A DNA stretch of 64,000 bases, from positions 606,001 through 670,000 of the forward strand of contig NW_027168298.1 in NCBI RefSeq assembly GCF_040954835.1, written 5' to 3'. Made by a program: the position numbers and the translations under genes. Below, in pieces: positions 56,993 to 62,293 of the stretch. The first letter of the stretch is position 1, and every line of letters begins with the position of its first letter. Under the pieces are notes generated by a model that did not search any database, was not told where the DNA came from, and was given only the letters and a program-made list of their open reading frames with translations. This DNA comes from Lepisosteus oculatus (taxonomy: Eukaryota > Chordata > Actinopteri > Semionotiformes > Lepisosteidae).

Positions 56993-57024
56993 CGGCTTAC
57001 CTGGCAGGGGAGATACCTTGATCA
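56993..57024 (+). ncRNA. U1 snRNA, 5' segment (nt 1-32), interrupted
   Basis: CTTACCTGGCAGGGGAGATA CCTTGATCA matches U1 nucleotides 4-32, including the 5' splice site-pairing region. The first three bases read CGG instead of ATA, because the upstream sequence is U5 promoter DNA that breaks at about 56990. The gene continues at 62162 after a 5.1-kb LINE. With no U1 promoter and an insertion it cannot be expressed as U1. Confidence 0.9.
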
Positions 57025-57091
57025 GCCTGTAGTTGGAGTAGTTGGATTGTTTTCTTGTTTTGTGGAAGCAGTGTTTGTTTTGCAGTTTGAG

Positions 57092-58519
57092 ATGGCAACC
57101 TTTGGATCCCGCAAGAATGCTGTACGTTTTGAGCTTTTGGATGACCTCTTCATGGATCGTATGCAGTTCAGCAGAAAAGTGTTACAGAAGGAACTTGGCT
57201 TTGAACCTCGGCACTTGGATTTCATCTTTGCTCTCCCAGGTCAGAAAGCATTTGAGGTTGTATTTGGTACCTATCCTCTGTTTGAACAATGCGTGGATGT
57301 GTTTGAGGCAAAAAGAGGGAAAGTTCCTGCACTTGAGAAGATCAACTTGCAGCCTCTGACACAGAGAGAGAGGAAAACGGTGCATGTTGTTATGTTCTCG
57401 GAACTGGCAAAGACGGAGGACATTCACACCTGGCTTAACCAGTACTGCACCGTCCACCATGGAACTGAGGTTAGAGATGTTGACGGTATAAAAACAGGAG
57501 CAAGGAAATTCGAGGTTCGCTTACTACCGGACAATGTAAATGGAGGCTTAAGGCACCTGCCCTCTACAATCCGGCTGGGCGCCTGCAATGGCTATGTTTT
57601 TTATGTGGGACAACCAAAGGTGTGTCGGCGCTGTGGTGCTGTGGGACACCTGGCATCTTCCTGCACTGTGAAATGCTGCAAGACCTGTGGCAAACAGGGA
57701 CATTTAGCCTCTGACTGTTCAATGCTGCCAAAGTGCAATTTATGTGGCTCGGAAGGACACGTTTTTAAGAACTGCCCTCACGCCTACGCCAATAAACTCA
57801 AAATGAGAAAGGATGAGGCAGTGCTTGTTTCAGCCAAACCGGCCCGAAAAGCCAAAGCAAACAACAAGTCAAACAAAGAACCCTTGTTGGACAAAGAGTC
57901 TCAGCCTCCAGCCAGGATCAGTCCTGCTGTGGCTCCGGGGCCGGTGGAAGAGAAATCCACTACGCTCCCACAACCGCAGACTGCACCAGACAAGCACGAG
58001 GGTTTGAAAACCCCCGAGAACAGCGAGGACCCCTCCCCCACTCCTGCTCCTCAGAACGAGGGCCAGTGTGGGGCCCCCCGGTGGAGCGGGTCCAGCGACG
58101 ATACCCAGGATTCAGCGGAGCTGCTTTTCTCAGACTCTGCAAGTGCTACAGATGCCCTCCTCTCCTCCATCCAGTCCATCACGGAGGATCTGCAACAGCT
58201 GGTGGGTGAGGGGGAAGAGGAGACTGGTGCATCGGCTGCACCCCTTTCCCCTCAGTGCTCCCAGGAGCTGGACTTGAGGAAAAGGAAAAATGACTCTGTT
58301 TTCTCCCCGAGCGAGGAGGAAGGAGAGAATGGCGATGGGGACAGCTGGAACCCCTCCACCCCTCCCTCTACCCCCTTCCTTGAAATGGACTCCGTGAATG
58401 CTTTTACTGCTGCCACCCTGATGAAGGCTCATTCAGAGGATGGCTGGCAGGAAATTGGTAAGAAGAAAAAGAAAAAGAAGAAGGTAACAGGTGAGACCGA
58501 AGAGAAATGTGTTTTGTAA
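57092..58519 (+). CDS. LINE ORF1, zinc-knuckle nucleic-acid-binding protein
   Basis: The 475-residue frame starts at the first ATG after the U1 junction (MATFGSRKNAV). The open frame extends further upstream through U1 and U5 DNA but without an ATG, so the inner start is preferred. Residues 10-160 form a mixed alpha/beta region. Three CCHC knuckles follow at about 178-191, 196-209 and 215-228 (CRRCGAVGHLASSC, CKTCGKQGHLASDC, CNLCGSEGHVFKNC). The remainder is a long proline, serine and acidic linker ending in a lysine-rich tail (KKKKKKKK). Such ORF1 proteins coat the LINE RNA. It ends just before ORF2 begins, as in L1/Tx1 elements. It is intact. Confidence 0.88.
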   Translation: MATFGSRKNAVRFELLDDLFMDRMQFSRKVLQKELGFEPRHLDFIFALPGQKAFEVVFGTYPLFEQCVDVFEAKRGKVPALEKINLQPLTQRERKTVHVVMFSELAKTEDIHTWLNQYCTVHHGTEVRDVDGIKTGARKFEVRLLPDNVNGGLRHLPSTIRLGACNGYVFYVGQPKVCRRCGAVGHLASSCTVKCCKTCGKQGHLASDCSMLPKCNLCGSEGHVFKNCPHAYANKLKMRKDEAVLVSAKPARKAKANNKSNKEPLLDKESQPPARISPAVAPGPVEEKSTTLPQPQTAPDKHEGLKTPENSEDPSPTPAPQNEGQCGAPRWSGSSDDTQDSAELLFSDSASATDALLSSIQSITEDLQQLVGEGEEETGASAAPLSPQCSQELDLRKRKNDSVFSPSEEEGENGDGDSWNPSTPPSTPFLEMDSVNAFTAATLMKAHSEDGWQEIGKKKKKKKKVTGETEEKCVL

Positions 58520-58545
58520 AGACTGGTTCCACTTTCTTATGTAAT

Positions 58546-59871: not shown

Positions 59872-61964
59872 CAGTAGAAGAGCTGAGACAGGCTATGGAG
59901 AGCTTACAGAAGGGGAAAACTCCAGGTGCTGACGGGCTCCCTAAAGAATTTTATTGCACCTTTTGGGATCTGCTTCAGGATCCGCTACTGGTCCTATTCG
60001 AGGAAAGATATAAGACAGAATTGCTGCCTGACTCCTTAAGAGAAGGCACTATCTCTCTCTTGTTTAAGAAAGGAGCAAAAAATGACATAAAGAACTGGAG
60101 ACCCCTCAGCCTGTTAGGCGTGGACACTAAGATCCTGTCCAAAGCCCTTTTCCTGCACCTACAAAATGTAGTGGCCTCACTGGTAGGGAAAGAACAGACT
60201 TGTGGGATAGCAGGACGCCTGATGAGCGACAACCTGGCCTTGTTGAGGGATGTCTGTCTGTACTCTGAGGATCGCTCCCTCCCTCTTTGCATTTTAGGTG
60301 TAGACCTAGAAAAGGCCTTTGACCGCCTAAACCGGCAGTACTTAACATCGGGACTTGAGCACATGAAGTTTGGCCCCATCATGAGAAAGTGGATTAACCT
60401 GCTGTACACAGGTAGCAACAGCAGAGTCATGGTTAATGGCAATAGATCACGCCCCTTTGAAGTCTGTTCAGGGGTGAGGCAGGGCTGCCCATTATCCCCC
60501 TTGTTATGCGTTTTGGCTATGGAGCCCTTAGCCTGTGCCTTGCGCCAGGATCAGGCCATTAATGGGATACCAGTGCCTGGAAGTGGGGGAGGAGAGGTAA
60601 AGACATCTCTATACATGGATGACGTCACCCTGCTCCTCTCTGACAATGCCTCAATTAGCAGAGCTCTGCAGTGCTGTGATCGTTTCTCTTTGGCTTCCTC
60701 CGCAAAAATTAACAAATCTAAGAGTGAGATTTTTTATCAGAACTGGAGGGAGCCAAAAGAAGGACATGATCTCAGGCTGCAAGAGAAGAGAATTAAGGTC
60801 CTGGGGGTGTATTTTGGAGAAGAGATGGGAACAGTAAATTGGCAGAACAAATTGCCAATCTTAAACAAAAAACTGATGCAATGGAAGGACCGAGACCTCA
60901 CCATGACAGGGAAGGTGCTGGTCATCAAAGCCGAGCTCTTGCCTGTCTTGAATTTTCTGGCTTCTACCTTCCCAATCCCACACCGTGTTGCGGCGGTGCT
61001 GAGGAGATTGATGTTTCAATTTCTATGGGGTGGGAAGCAGGAAAGACTCAGAAGGGAAATAATGTACAGGCCGCTACCCTCAGGGGGGAAGTCTGTCCCA
61101 GATATTGCTACGAAGCTGCTGTGCATTTTCCTGGCCTCTGTGCTGAGAGGCTTTGCAACAGCACCTGCAGCGCGTACCTGGACTTATTTTTCCAGGCTCT
61201 GGGTAGGTAGGGAGGTGTTCAGAGTGTGGGGTGTCAGACCCAAGCTGGACGTCCCACTCTCTGACACATGCCCTGCAATTTATGGGACAGTTAAAAGTTT
61301 TCTAAGATCTCACCCAATTGGCCATATTCCCCTCCGAGATGTCAGCGTCCAAAAACTGGAAGATTTCGTTGCACCCCAGAACAATAGGCAGACCCATGTG
61401 GGCATTTTAACATCAGCCCAAACAAGGAAGGTGTGGAAACACACATCCTCTAAGTTTCTGTGCAACATTCACAGAGATTTAGCCTGGAGTGTCGTCCACC
61501 AGTGCTTACCGGTACGAACTTTCTTGTACCGTAGGGGCCTCACCCCCAGCCCTCGCTGCGTTAGGGTGGGCTGCGGCGAGGAGGAGACTGTATCCCATCT
61601 CCTGTGGTCCTGCTTTTTTGCTAAGGCCTTCTGGGCACAGTTTGAAGATTGGTTGCTGGCTCTCTCGCCCCAATTTACCCTGACCGCTGCTTTCGTCATA
61701 TACGGCATCTCTCCTGTCAAACTTCCTCCTGACGTGTTTGACAGGATCTGGGCCGTGGTGAACAGTGGGAAAGTTGCCCTGTGGAGAGTGAGGAACATGG
61801 GGCTGTTCAAAGGCATCGAGATCCCAGTCAAGGCAGCAGGTAGCCTGGCCCTGTTCATCACCCGAGAGAACTATTACCTCAGAGATCTGTGGAGAGAAGG
61901 GAGGGAGGAAGCAGAAAATCTGTGGGAAATAGAGAGCATAGGTCAATATCTCAAGAAACTGTGA
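59841..61964 (+). CDS. LINE ORF2, reverse transcriptase half
   Basis: The frame has no ATG at its start and is the displaced continuation of ORF2. It contains the non-LTR fingers (KTPGADGLPKEFY), NWRPLSLL, VDLEKAFDRLN (motif A), SGVRQGCPLSPLL (motif B) and LYMDDVTLL (motif C). The YMDD box is unusual beside the F/YADD common in non-LTR enzymes, but the two aspartates are kept. A C-terminal CX5C...H...C motif (CVRVGCGEEETVSHLLWSC) resembles the zinc motif of L1-group ORF2. No stop occurs over about 700 codons, so only the upstream frameshift visibly disables it. Confidence 0.87.
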   Translation, partial: KDREVLERDLTVEELRQAMESLQKGKTPGADGLPKEFYCTFWDLLQDPLLVLFEERYKTELLPDSLREGTISLLFKKGAKNDIKNWRPLSLLGVDTKILSKALFLHLQNVVASLVGKEQTCGIAGRLMSDNLALLRDVCLYSEDRSLPLCILGVDLEKAFDRLNRQYLTSGLEHMKFGPIMRKWINLLYTGSNSRVMVNGNRSRPFEVCSGVRQGCPLSPLLCVLAMEPLACALRQDQAINGIPVPGSGGGEVKTSLYMDDVTLLLSDNASISRALQCCDRFSLASSAKINKSKSEIFYQNWREPKEGHDLRLQEKRIKVLGVYFGEEMGTVNWQNKLPILNKKLMQWKDRDLTMTGKVLVIKAELLPVLNFLASTFPIPHRVAAVLRRLMFQFLWGGKQERLRREIMYRPLPSGGKSVPDIATKLLCIFLASVLRGFATAPAARTWTYFSRLWVGREVFRVWGVRPKLDVPLSDTCPAIYGTVKSFLRSHPIGHIPLRDVSVQKLEDFVAPQNNRQTHVGILTSAQTRKVWKHTSSKFLCNIHRDLAWSVVHQCLPVRTFLYRRGLTPSPRCVRVGCGEEETVSHLLWSCFFAKAFWAQFEDWLLALSPQFTLTAAFVIYGISPVKLPPDVFDRIWAVVNSGKVALWRVRNMGLFKGIEIPVKAAGSLALFITRENYYLRDLWREGREEAENLWEIESIGQYLKKL

Positions 61965-62161
61965 AAAACATTATCAAGTTTAAGTAAAGAATGTGATTTG
62001 CACCAGAAAAAAAGAAAATTGTTGCTATGTAACTGTTACCATGTCAAAATGTAATGAGATGTGATCATATATACTGTTTTAAGTATGTATATGAATGTAA
62101 AGCTTTCTGATTTGTGATGTCCTGTATTTTTTTGTGAAAAGAAAATAAAGTTCTTAAAAAT

Positions 62162-62293
62162 CGAAATCGGTTCACCCAGGGCGAGGCTCGGCCATTGCAC
62201 TCCGGCTGTGCTGACCCCTGCGAATTCCCCAAATGTGGGAATCTCGACTGCATAATTTCTGGTAGTGGGGGACTGCGTTCGCGCTCTCCCCTG
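62162..62293 (+). ncRNA. U1 snRNA, 3' segment (nt 33-164)
   Basis: The 132 bases match U1 nucleotides 33-164 without length change: CCCAGGGCGAGGCT, CATTGCACTCCGG, GACCCCTGCGA, the Sm region AATTTCTGG and the stem IV sequence GGGGGACTGCGTTCGCGCT followed by CTCCCCTG. The U1A-binding loop (ATTGCACTCC) is intact. Together with 56993-57024 it makes one complete U1 gene of 164 nt split by the LINE. Confidence 0.93.

Follow-up and report, generated by a model that had tools for sequence, protein, structure and literature searches.

The stretch of DNA analyzed here, called the window, is 64 kb from the gar Lepisosteus oculatus (NW_027168298.1 of GCF_040954835.1; contig 679:606001-670000 of the 1.2-Gb assembly to which all genome-wide counts below refer). 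Rfam matches in the window comprise a U4, two U5, and one U1 small nuclear RNA (snRNA), one 5S rRNA, and 21 tRNAs. Toward its end, two pieces of U1 sequence on the same strand flank a full-length long interspersed nuclear element (LINE) of the L1/Tx1 type, here called the U1-LINE (Table 1).

The U1-LINE and its two U1 flanks

A preliminary description of this locus placed U1 nucleotides (nt) 4-32 immediately upstream of the element, ending at 57024, and this is confirmed by comparison with the genome's own U1; the downstream U1 piece lies on the same strand. The leader segment matches human U1 at 28 of 29 positions. Pfam likewise upholds a LINE with ORF1, an apurinic/apyrimidinic endonuclease-like domain (APE), and a reverse transcriptase (RT) between the U1 pieces. 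Two open reading frames (ORFs), the first with CCHC knuckles and the second with APE and RT, are the arrangement of the L1/Tx1 group, and the second part of ORF2 matches LINE-1 ORF2p structures at E 8.1e-57. ORF2 of the window copy is interrupted by one frame break near 59841-59871. Both ORFs are open (475-477 and 1152 amino acids) in 13 distinct elements among 20 loci on C1, among which L013 and L014 show one element twice (C and L numbers denote contigs and loci of our survey). At the 5' end, positions 56900-57300 contain no Rfam ribozyme family at E<=10, ribozymes resembling that of hepatitis delta virus (HDV) included, though a diverged ribozyme could escape this search. Downstream of U1, the motif AAAATCAGA resembles the 3' box of snRNA genes.

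Table 1. Features in and around the insertion (window coordinates)
Feature	Position	Strand	Evidence or remark
U5 snRNA gene; its upstream spacer (56861-56995) adjoins the U1 leader	56747..56860	-	RF00020, 86.9 bits
U1 leader, nt 4-32	56996..57024	+	29/29 identical to genome's own U1
Full-length L1/Tx1-type LINE, 5.14 kb including variable tail	57025..62168	+	
LINE 5' untranslated region (UTR), short (67 bp)	57025..57091	+	
ORF1, 475 amino acids: ZCCHC3-type RBD1, RBD2, and CCHC zinc knuckles	57092..58519	+	Pfam PF23057, PF23058, PF00098
ORF2, first part: APE endonuclease	58546..59871	+	PF03372 (4.8e-15), PF14529 (5.5e-7); in-frame ATG upstream at 58507
ORF2, second part: RT and zf-RVT	59841..61964	+	PF00078 (5e-34), PF13966 (5.6e-8)
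LINE 3' end: AATAAA and variable tail ...AAAAATCGAAATC	62142..62168	+	Tail differs between copies
U1 snRNA nt 40-164, 3' part of target gene	62169..62293	+	Rfam RF00003 and native U1 comparison
Downstream part of native U1 unit, continuing into the next unit's upstream flank	62294..64000	+	95-98% to most of 30 intact U1 loci
snRNA 3'-box-like AAAATCAGA	62307..62315	+	Motif search
5S rRNA gene, downstream of U1	62919..63037	-	RF00001, 105.5 bits

Insertion at one U1 nucleotide

As a reference for the target we used 30 intact U1 loci, fetched out of the 42 best Rfam matches scored. All 30 read ATACTTACCTGGCAGGGGAGATACCTTGATCA-AGAAGGA-GGTTC[AG]CCCAGGG, in which GATCA ends at nt 32 and nt 33 is A. 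In the window, U1 resumes at G40 (62169), and nt 33-39 are absent. Since native U1 has A33, the bases CGAAATC belong to the variable LINE tail and not to U1; a junction at C33 is thereby ruled out, CGAA being part of the tail. The preliminary description had U1 resuming at nt 33 (62162) with no base clearly lost or duplicated. Neither statement holds, given that full-length insertions retain U1 to nt 32 and lack nt 33-39, and that odd or truncated ones with a readable target-side break repeat 4-15 nt.

The exact 21-base LINE tail occurs 412 times genome-wide, and 313 of these occurrences, DNA duplicates included, run within 0-16 bases into exact U1 nt 40-50; a reversed-pattern control for the same combination gave 0 in the genome. 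We then read the flanks of the first 100 of the 412 listed tails, which follow contig order (contigs 1-20) and are not a random sample. U1 follows the tail in 44, another LINE in 12, U5 in 1, and other sequence in 43. All 44 U1-joined ends have one orientation and start at nt 40 (38 ends), 41 (4), or 42 (2), and such clustering on one U1 nucleotide cannot be due to chance. Ten of the 12 LINE-to-LINE tails are joined directly head to tail, and two via U1 40-52 or 40-54 (L014, L139). At E 0.01, neither strand of the other 43 gave a match to U1, U5, or the LINE, and on reading the 100 flanks we saw no insertion at U2 nt 39, the site of the LINE Keno.

The U1-LINE therefore shows one trait of target-specific L1/Tx1 members, insertion at a specific site in a multicopy RNA gene. 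As to the further trait that nearly all copies sit at one target, 313 of 412 exact tails are at U1 when duplicates are counted, and 43 of the 100 sampled lie elsewhere, so that U1 specificity is a strong preference and not absolute. The proposal of a U1-targeting Tx1-like family is strongly supported by the genome-wide counts and by fish relatives, but not in a strict form: copies joined to unrelated sequence, named beforehand as evidence against it, do exist in that proportion, yet the clustering on one nucleotide stands. An exact intact U1 target (nt 15-52) is present 429 times in the genome, and on C1 occupied and intact U1 units are interleaved.

Repeated insertion and DNA duplication

Many copies are DNA duplicates, yet the copies differ in tail, in 5' structure, in element sequence, and in the U1 locus hit, which demonstrates repeated independent insertion. 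Among 40 scored matches to tail plus U1, 38 are identical over 341 bp, and the 5' flank of the window copy with its leader occurs in 246 exact copies. On the other side, the first 100 of the 313 listed junctions contain 19 different strings between tail and U1. The 13 intact C1 elements, some of them identical to each other, sort into 8 groups that differ from one another by at least 10 substitutions in about 5.07 kb; 12 of the elements lie in an array near 5.53-5.70 Mb, and L026 lies at 6.5 Mb. The same U1 base has been struck in U1 loci with different downstream DNA (C1, C4, C6, C12, C13, C14), a diverged U1 copy (L074, 87% identical) is also among the U1-joined tails, and in two cases (L013/L014, L139/L100) a second LINE entered the same U1 site beside the first.

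The 5' junctions and the U1 leader

The exact 5' junction of U1 15-32 with GCCTGTAG is found at 538 places genome-wide, 172 of them preceded by the native U1 5' flank CTCATA. The window copy is of another kind. It lacks U1 nt 1-3, what precedes 56996 is U5 spacer DNA from the gene at 56860(-), and the segment 54500-56993 gave no match to the flanks of the 30 intact U1 loci and is thus not U1 5' flank. Because the U1 sequence joins this U5 spacer at nt 4 through a shared CTT, the upstream piece most plausibly represents a leader that the element brought with it, not an in-place gene; a later rearrangement at this join is also conceivable.

Some junctions record how the target was broken. In the identical elements L022/L023 (C1), U1 1-47 is followed by U1 26-32 and the LINE, with ACC shared; in L016 (C1), U1 1-43 is followed by U1 7-32 and the LINE, with TT shared. 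L017 (C1) has U1 1-53, five extra bases, and the LINE from position 584, and L010 has U1 1-47, a T, a repeat of U1 38-49, and the LINE from about nt 59. L013/L014 (C1) reads LINE, U1 40-52, truncated LINE, U1 from nt 40, a 13-nt duplication. In all of these and in L139 the target-side break falls at nt 43-54. In odd and 5'-truncated copies, U1 thus extends to nt 43-54 on the left side and restarts at nt 40 on the right side, and the copies with a readable target-side break duplicate 4-15 nt of U1. We also fetched eight expected 5' positions, at which a LINE start was found for L142 only and U5 sequence for L147.

Copies outside U1

Seven 5' ends, together with L142, were read for leaders outside U1. 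In all seven the DNA before the leader is not U1 5' flank, and for six of them the matching tail lies outside U1; the seventh, L154, has a leader from nt 1. The six leaders begin at U1 nt 3/4 (L148, tail L069, C4), exactly at nt 1 (L149, tail L107), and at nt 9 (L150, tail L097, C14), nt 4 (L151, tail L125, C14), nt 13 (L152, tail L106), and nt 5 (L153, the start of a C16 array ending at L110). L148/L069 lies inside a 7SL gene (RF00017, 40 and 148 bits) and is flanked by a 13-bp target site duplication (TSD), CGGGAGGCTGAGA, that encloses the leader. L150 and L151 lie in U7 (RF00066, 32.8 and 30.3 bits; cut-off 34 bits); CGGTTTT is present on both sides of L150/L097 (a 7-9-bp TSD), and L097 and L125 have one common 3' flank. 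Since copies with 3' ends outside U1 carry it, the U1 leader travels with the element, and its presence there, once inside a 13-bp TSD, makes it most likely that the LINE RNA starts at the U1 start site.

Other copies extend this picture. L087 (C12) is in U5, with 81/81 bases of the window's U5 (Rfam 30.5 bits, below the cut-off), and the U5 5' sequence of L147 lies upstream of it. The 7SL, U7, and U5 insertions have the same orientation as the gene. In L142/L089 (C13:33800603-33806140) the LINE is preceded by U1 17-32 and followed by U1 40-101, then by a run of C and a run of A, as if a read-through U1-LINE-U1 transcript had inserted elsewhere. At C16:20318924-20339600 (L110-L113, L153) there is a head-to-tail LINE array with a period of about 5,126 bp, whose first copy has the U1 leader, preceded by what we take to be U2 nt 1-23. 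In C14 copies L095, L096, L098, L129, L135, and L137 the tail is joined directly to the next LINE start with no U1 between.

An Rfam scan of 42 of the 43 other tails placed three in small RNA genes (7SL, and U7 twice via the 5' flank). A 58-bp 3' flank (AATCGCGTCTCCACT...CCTTTGTTCTGA...) is common to five of the 43 (L028, L105, L115-L117), and L061 and L080 appear similar by eye. These seven tails gave no Rfam match (six at E<=0.01, L116 at E<=1), which for the six is a weak test because the U5 piece of L087 and the U1 piece of L074 also escaped that scan. A second target, transduced sequence, or a subfamily tail are candidate explanations of this flank.

Relatives in other fishes

The closest relative of ORF1 is a partial protein from Atractosteus spatula (97% identical over 75% of the query); for ORF2, the top relatives reach about 50% identity over 98%. 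In an RT tree of 52 rows, the window sequence and 20 relatives, rows from Xiphophorus and Poecilia included, form one clade (SH-like approximate likelihood ratio support 100). Beside it stands a clade that includes Xenopus proteins and proteins of Danio with the names pol-like or TX1, in a tree built without the reference elements Tx1, Keno, and Mutsu. A search of genome contigs returned one weak match (31% identical) in L001 (JALWDV010000429.1), a LINE-like RT on a contig of a bacterial metagenome bin and probably contamination. A search of viral contigs gave 0 matches, and one of plasmids gave one weak match (26% identical).

Five of 161 proteins scanned score above all controls for U1-encoded peptides: Mugilogobius P0129 (SNSYLPGRGDT), Polypterus P0138 (VQLILTWQGRYL), Erpetoichthys P0140 (LTWQGRYL), and Xiphophorus P0089 (ILTWQGR) and P0072 (KCGNLDCIISGSGGLRS). 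The first four have U1 5' sequence ahead of the LINE part. P0072 has U1 3' sequence ahead of RT and shows linkage only, because it is probably a spliced gene model. The scores of P0138 and P0140 depend on the U1 used: 64 and 60 against the genome's own C1 U1 (best antisense 45, best of 20 shuffles 47), 55 and 52 against the genome's other U1 type, and 47 and 44, not above the best control of 49, against a vertebrate-like U1. The score of P0089 (59) exceeds the shuffles, while its exact run of seven amino acids merely equals the longest shuffle run. Because the query used to find ORF1 relatives included residues encoded by U1, in the frame that P0138 and P0140 also show, that search carries a mild bias; the frame of P0129 is different. 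As the ORF1 tree does not unite the U1-linked rows, these data do not show one origin of U1 targeting.

Surroundings of the locus

The U5 gene and its spacer are part of an inverted duplication (93%; 55363-55760 and 56598-56995) that flanks the U4 gene. The 21 Rfam tRNA matches form a dense cluster in window positions 1-56500, which contain many highly similar repeats, both direct and inverted. This cluster seems amplified because the window's 5' junction flank is found 246 times exactly in the genome. Beside the U5 spacer, an open frame with spaced cysteines (KICGRSCKDVQLCNYC...) at 55719-56060 (+) is perhaps a fragment of another element.

Discussion

Taken as a whole, these observations are very probably explained by a recently active L1/Tx1-type family that targets U1 genes by means of a U1-started RNA and annealing of its leader. 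According to the junctions, the APE endonuclease would nick U1 at 39/40 on its antisense strand, target-primed reverse transcription would begin at this nick, and a second cut would follow about 13 nt downstream, near 52/53. An occupied U1 gene would supply its promoter for the RNA, which would begin at U1 +1 and carry nt 1-32. The leader part of the complementary DNA (cDNA) could then anneal to the new target's own U1 5' end, giving the uniform junction at nt 32. If annealing failed, microhomology joins would leave partly duplicated U1, or, as in the window, a join to unrelated DNA. With its leader from nt 4, broken ORF2, and no U1 5' flank, the window copy would be one such microhomology-joined insertion, later multiplied by DNA duplication since its 5' flank type occurs 246 times.

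Several points weigh against this reading. Of the sampled tails, 43 in 100 are off U1, and the 246 window-type flanks inflate the U1-joined counts; point changes or slippage after insertion, and not separate events, could account for some of the tail variants. The seven 5' ends with leaders were chosen because the leader pattern was listed there. Six U1-joined copies (C4, C12, and four on C14) have no LINE start at the expected 5' position and for this reason are probably not full length, as may be true of many U1 copies. The full-length junctions could instead reflect a top-strand cut at 32/33 and a 7-nt deletion, and the case for transcription from the U1 promoter comes from DNA.

A different history would give the U1 sequence no place in the RNA: the leader would have been gained after insertion, through recombination or gene conversion between U1 genes. 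Tandem U1 arrays may be expected to recombine and homogenize, and the 172 of 538 5' junctions with native U1 flank would fit. We nevertheless consider this unlikely, as copies flanked on either side by DNA other than U1 have leaders from nt 1, 3/4, 4, 5, 9, and 13, once within the 13-bp TSD of L148/L069 and once with the 7-9-bp TSD in U7 (L150/L097), and as the breakpoints of L016 and L022/L023 (43 and 47) fall in the short zone of those of truncated copies.

Targeting itself might also be an illusion. Random insertion with survival only in redundant U1 arrays would account for the 43 of 100 tails elsewhere and would fit the large number and redundancy of U1 genes (429 exact intact targets), but selection of this kind predicts a spread over U1 genes and spacers, whereas the 44 sampled U1 hits share one orientation and all start at nt 40-42. 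The 43 other tails match U1 on neither strand at E 0.01, and a few off-target tails are in small RNA genes (7SL 1; U7 2, of one locus type; U5 1), so that this explanation seems highly improbable. Even less weight can be given to a single chance insertion into U1, free of target specificity, that was multiplied by tandem or segmental duplication of U1/tRNA clusters. The 246 exact window-type flanks, the 38 of 40 matches identical over 341 bp, and the identical C1 elements attest to duplication. As the whole story we reject it: it is already contradicted by the same 3' nucleotide recurring with different tails, 5' ends, elements, and U1 loci, diverged L074 among them, by second LINEs at the same site (L013/L014, L139/L100), and by U1-linked relatives in other fish.

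Beyond targeting of U1 by an active family, its copies suggest that the element lives off the promoter of the U1 gene, because they carry the first 32 letters of U1. A wider reading, which may be right but which we hold with slightly less than even confidence, is a promoter-parasitic LINE lineage that lacks its own promoter and goes far back in ray-finned fishes, with U1-linked relatives in bichir, gar, goby, and platyfish. Its RNA would start at the U1 start, and U1 nt 1-32 would serve both as 5' UTR and as the cDNA guide into the next U1, with rare escapes to 7SL, U7, U5, U2, and elsewhere. Re-pairing of U1 stem-loop I is possible in such a lineage. As the insertion splits this stem-loop, with the 5' strand in the leader and the 3' strand GGTTCACCC at the other end, an RNA through both ends could re-pair and so draw the two ends of the LINE close to each other.

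We know of no retrotransposon reported for U1 genes. In agreement with the preliminary description, the open PMC literature searched yielded none that targets U1; Repbase and Repbase Reports were outside this search, and an unpublished or database-only U1 family is possible. R2, like the U1-LINE, lives in a tandem RNA gene (28S rRNA), and it carries a restriction-like endonuclease. It frees its RNA with an HDV-like ribozyme, as described in PMC3774820. The U1-LINE differs in having an APE (PF03372), no Rfam ribozyme at its 5' end, and a leader that begins at the host gene's own start.

Among snRNA-gene transposons, the relevant part of PMC4640811 (2015) names Keno, Utopia, Dada-U1, and Dada-U6 only. 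Keno, a Tx1-clade LINE of U2 snRNA genes (Kojima and Fujiwara 2004, as described in PMC4640811), is likewise an APE-encoding LINE found in fish with a site early in an snRNA gene. By its description it is set apart by its U2 target and another site sequence. After Utopia, which is stated there to have the same 3' flank as Keno, U2 picks up at nt 39, and U1 here does so at nt 40, both early in the gene. Utopia, a LINE targeting U2, is described in the same source with precise 3' and varied 5' boundaries and occasional tandem insertions, features in common with the U1-LINE, but has a restriction-like endonuclease and its U2 target. Dada-U1 is described as a DNA transposon of fish U1 genes with a DDE transposase and a 6-bp TSD, GCGAAT/GCGAAC (PMC3706591, PMC8869645), which by our count is about nt 91-96 of U1, whereas the U1-LINE is an RT element at nt 40. 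Mutsu and Dewa, zebrafish elements of 5S rRNA genes and of a tRNA-Leu spacer listed as target-specific in PMC3706591, differ, by description, in their targets.

PMC3774820 postulates for R2, with 28S sequence, the same annealing as proposed here. The U1-LINE junctions may thus provide a DNA record of that postulated step, in which host-gene sequence on the cDNA guides the 5' junction, here in an APE-type LINE without a ribozyme detectable by Rfam. With 313 exact occupied U1 sites (duplicates included) against 429 intact ones, the element places a heavy burden on a gene family that is essential.

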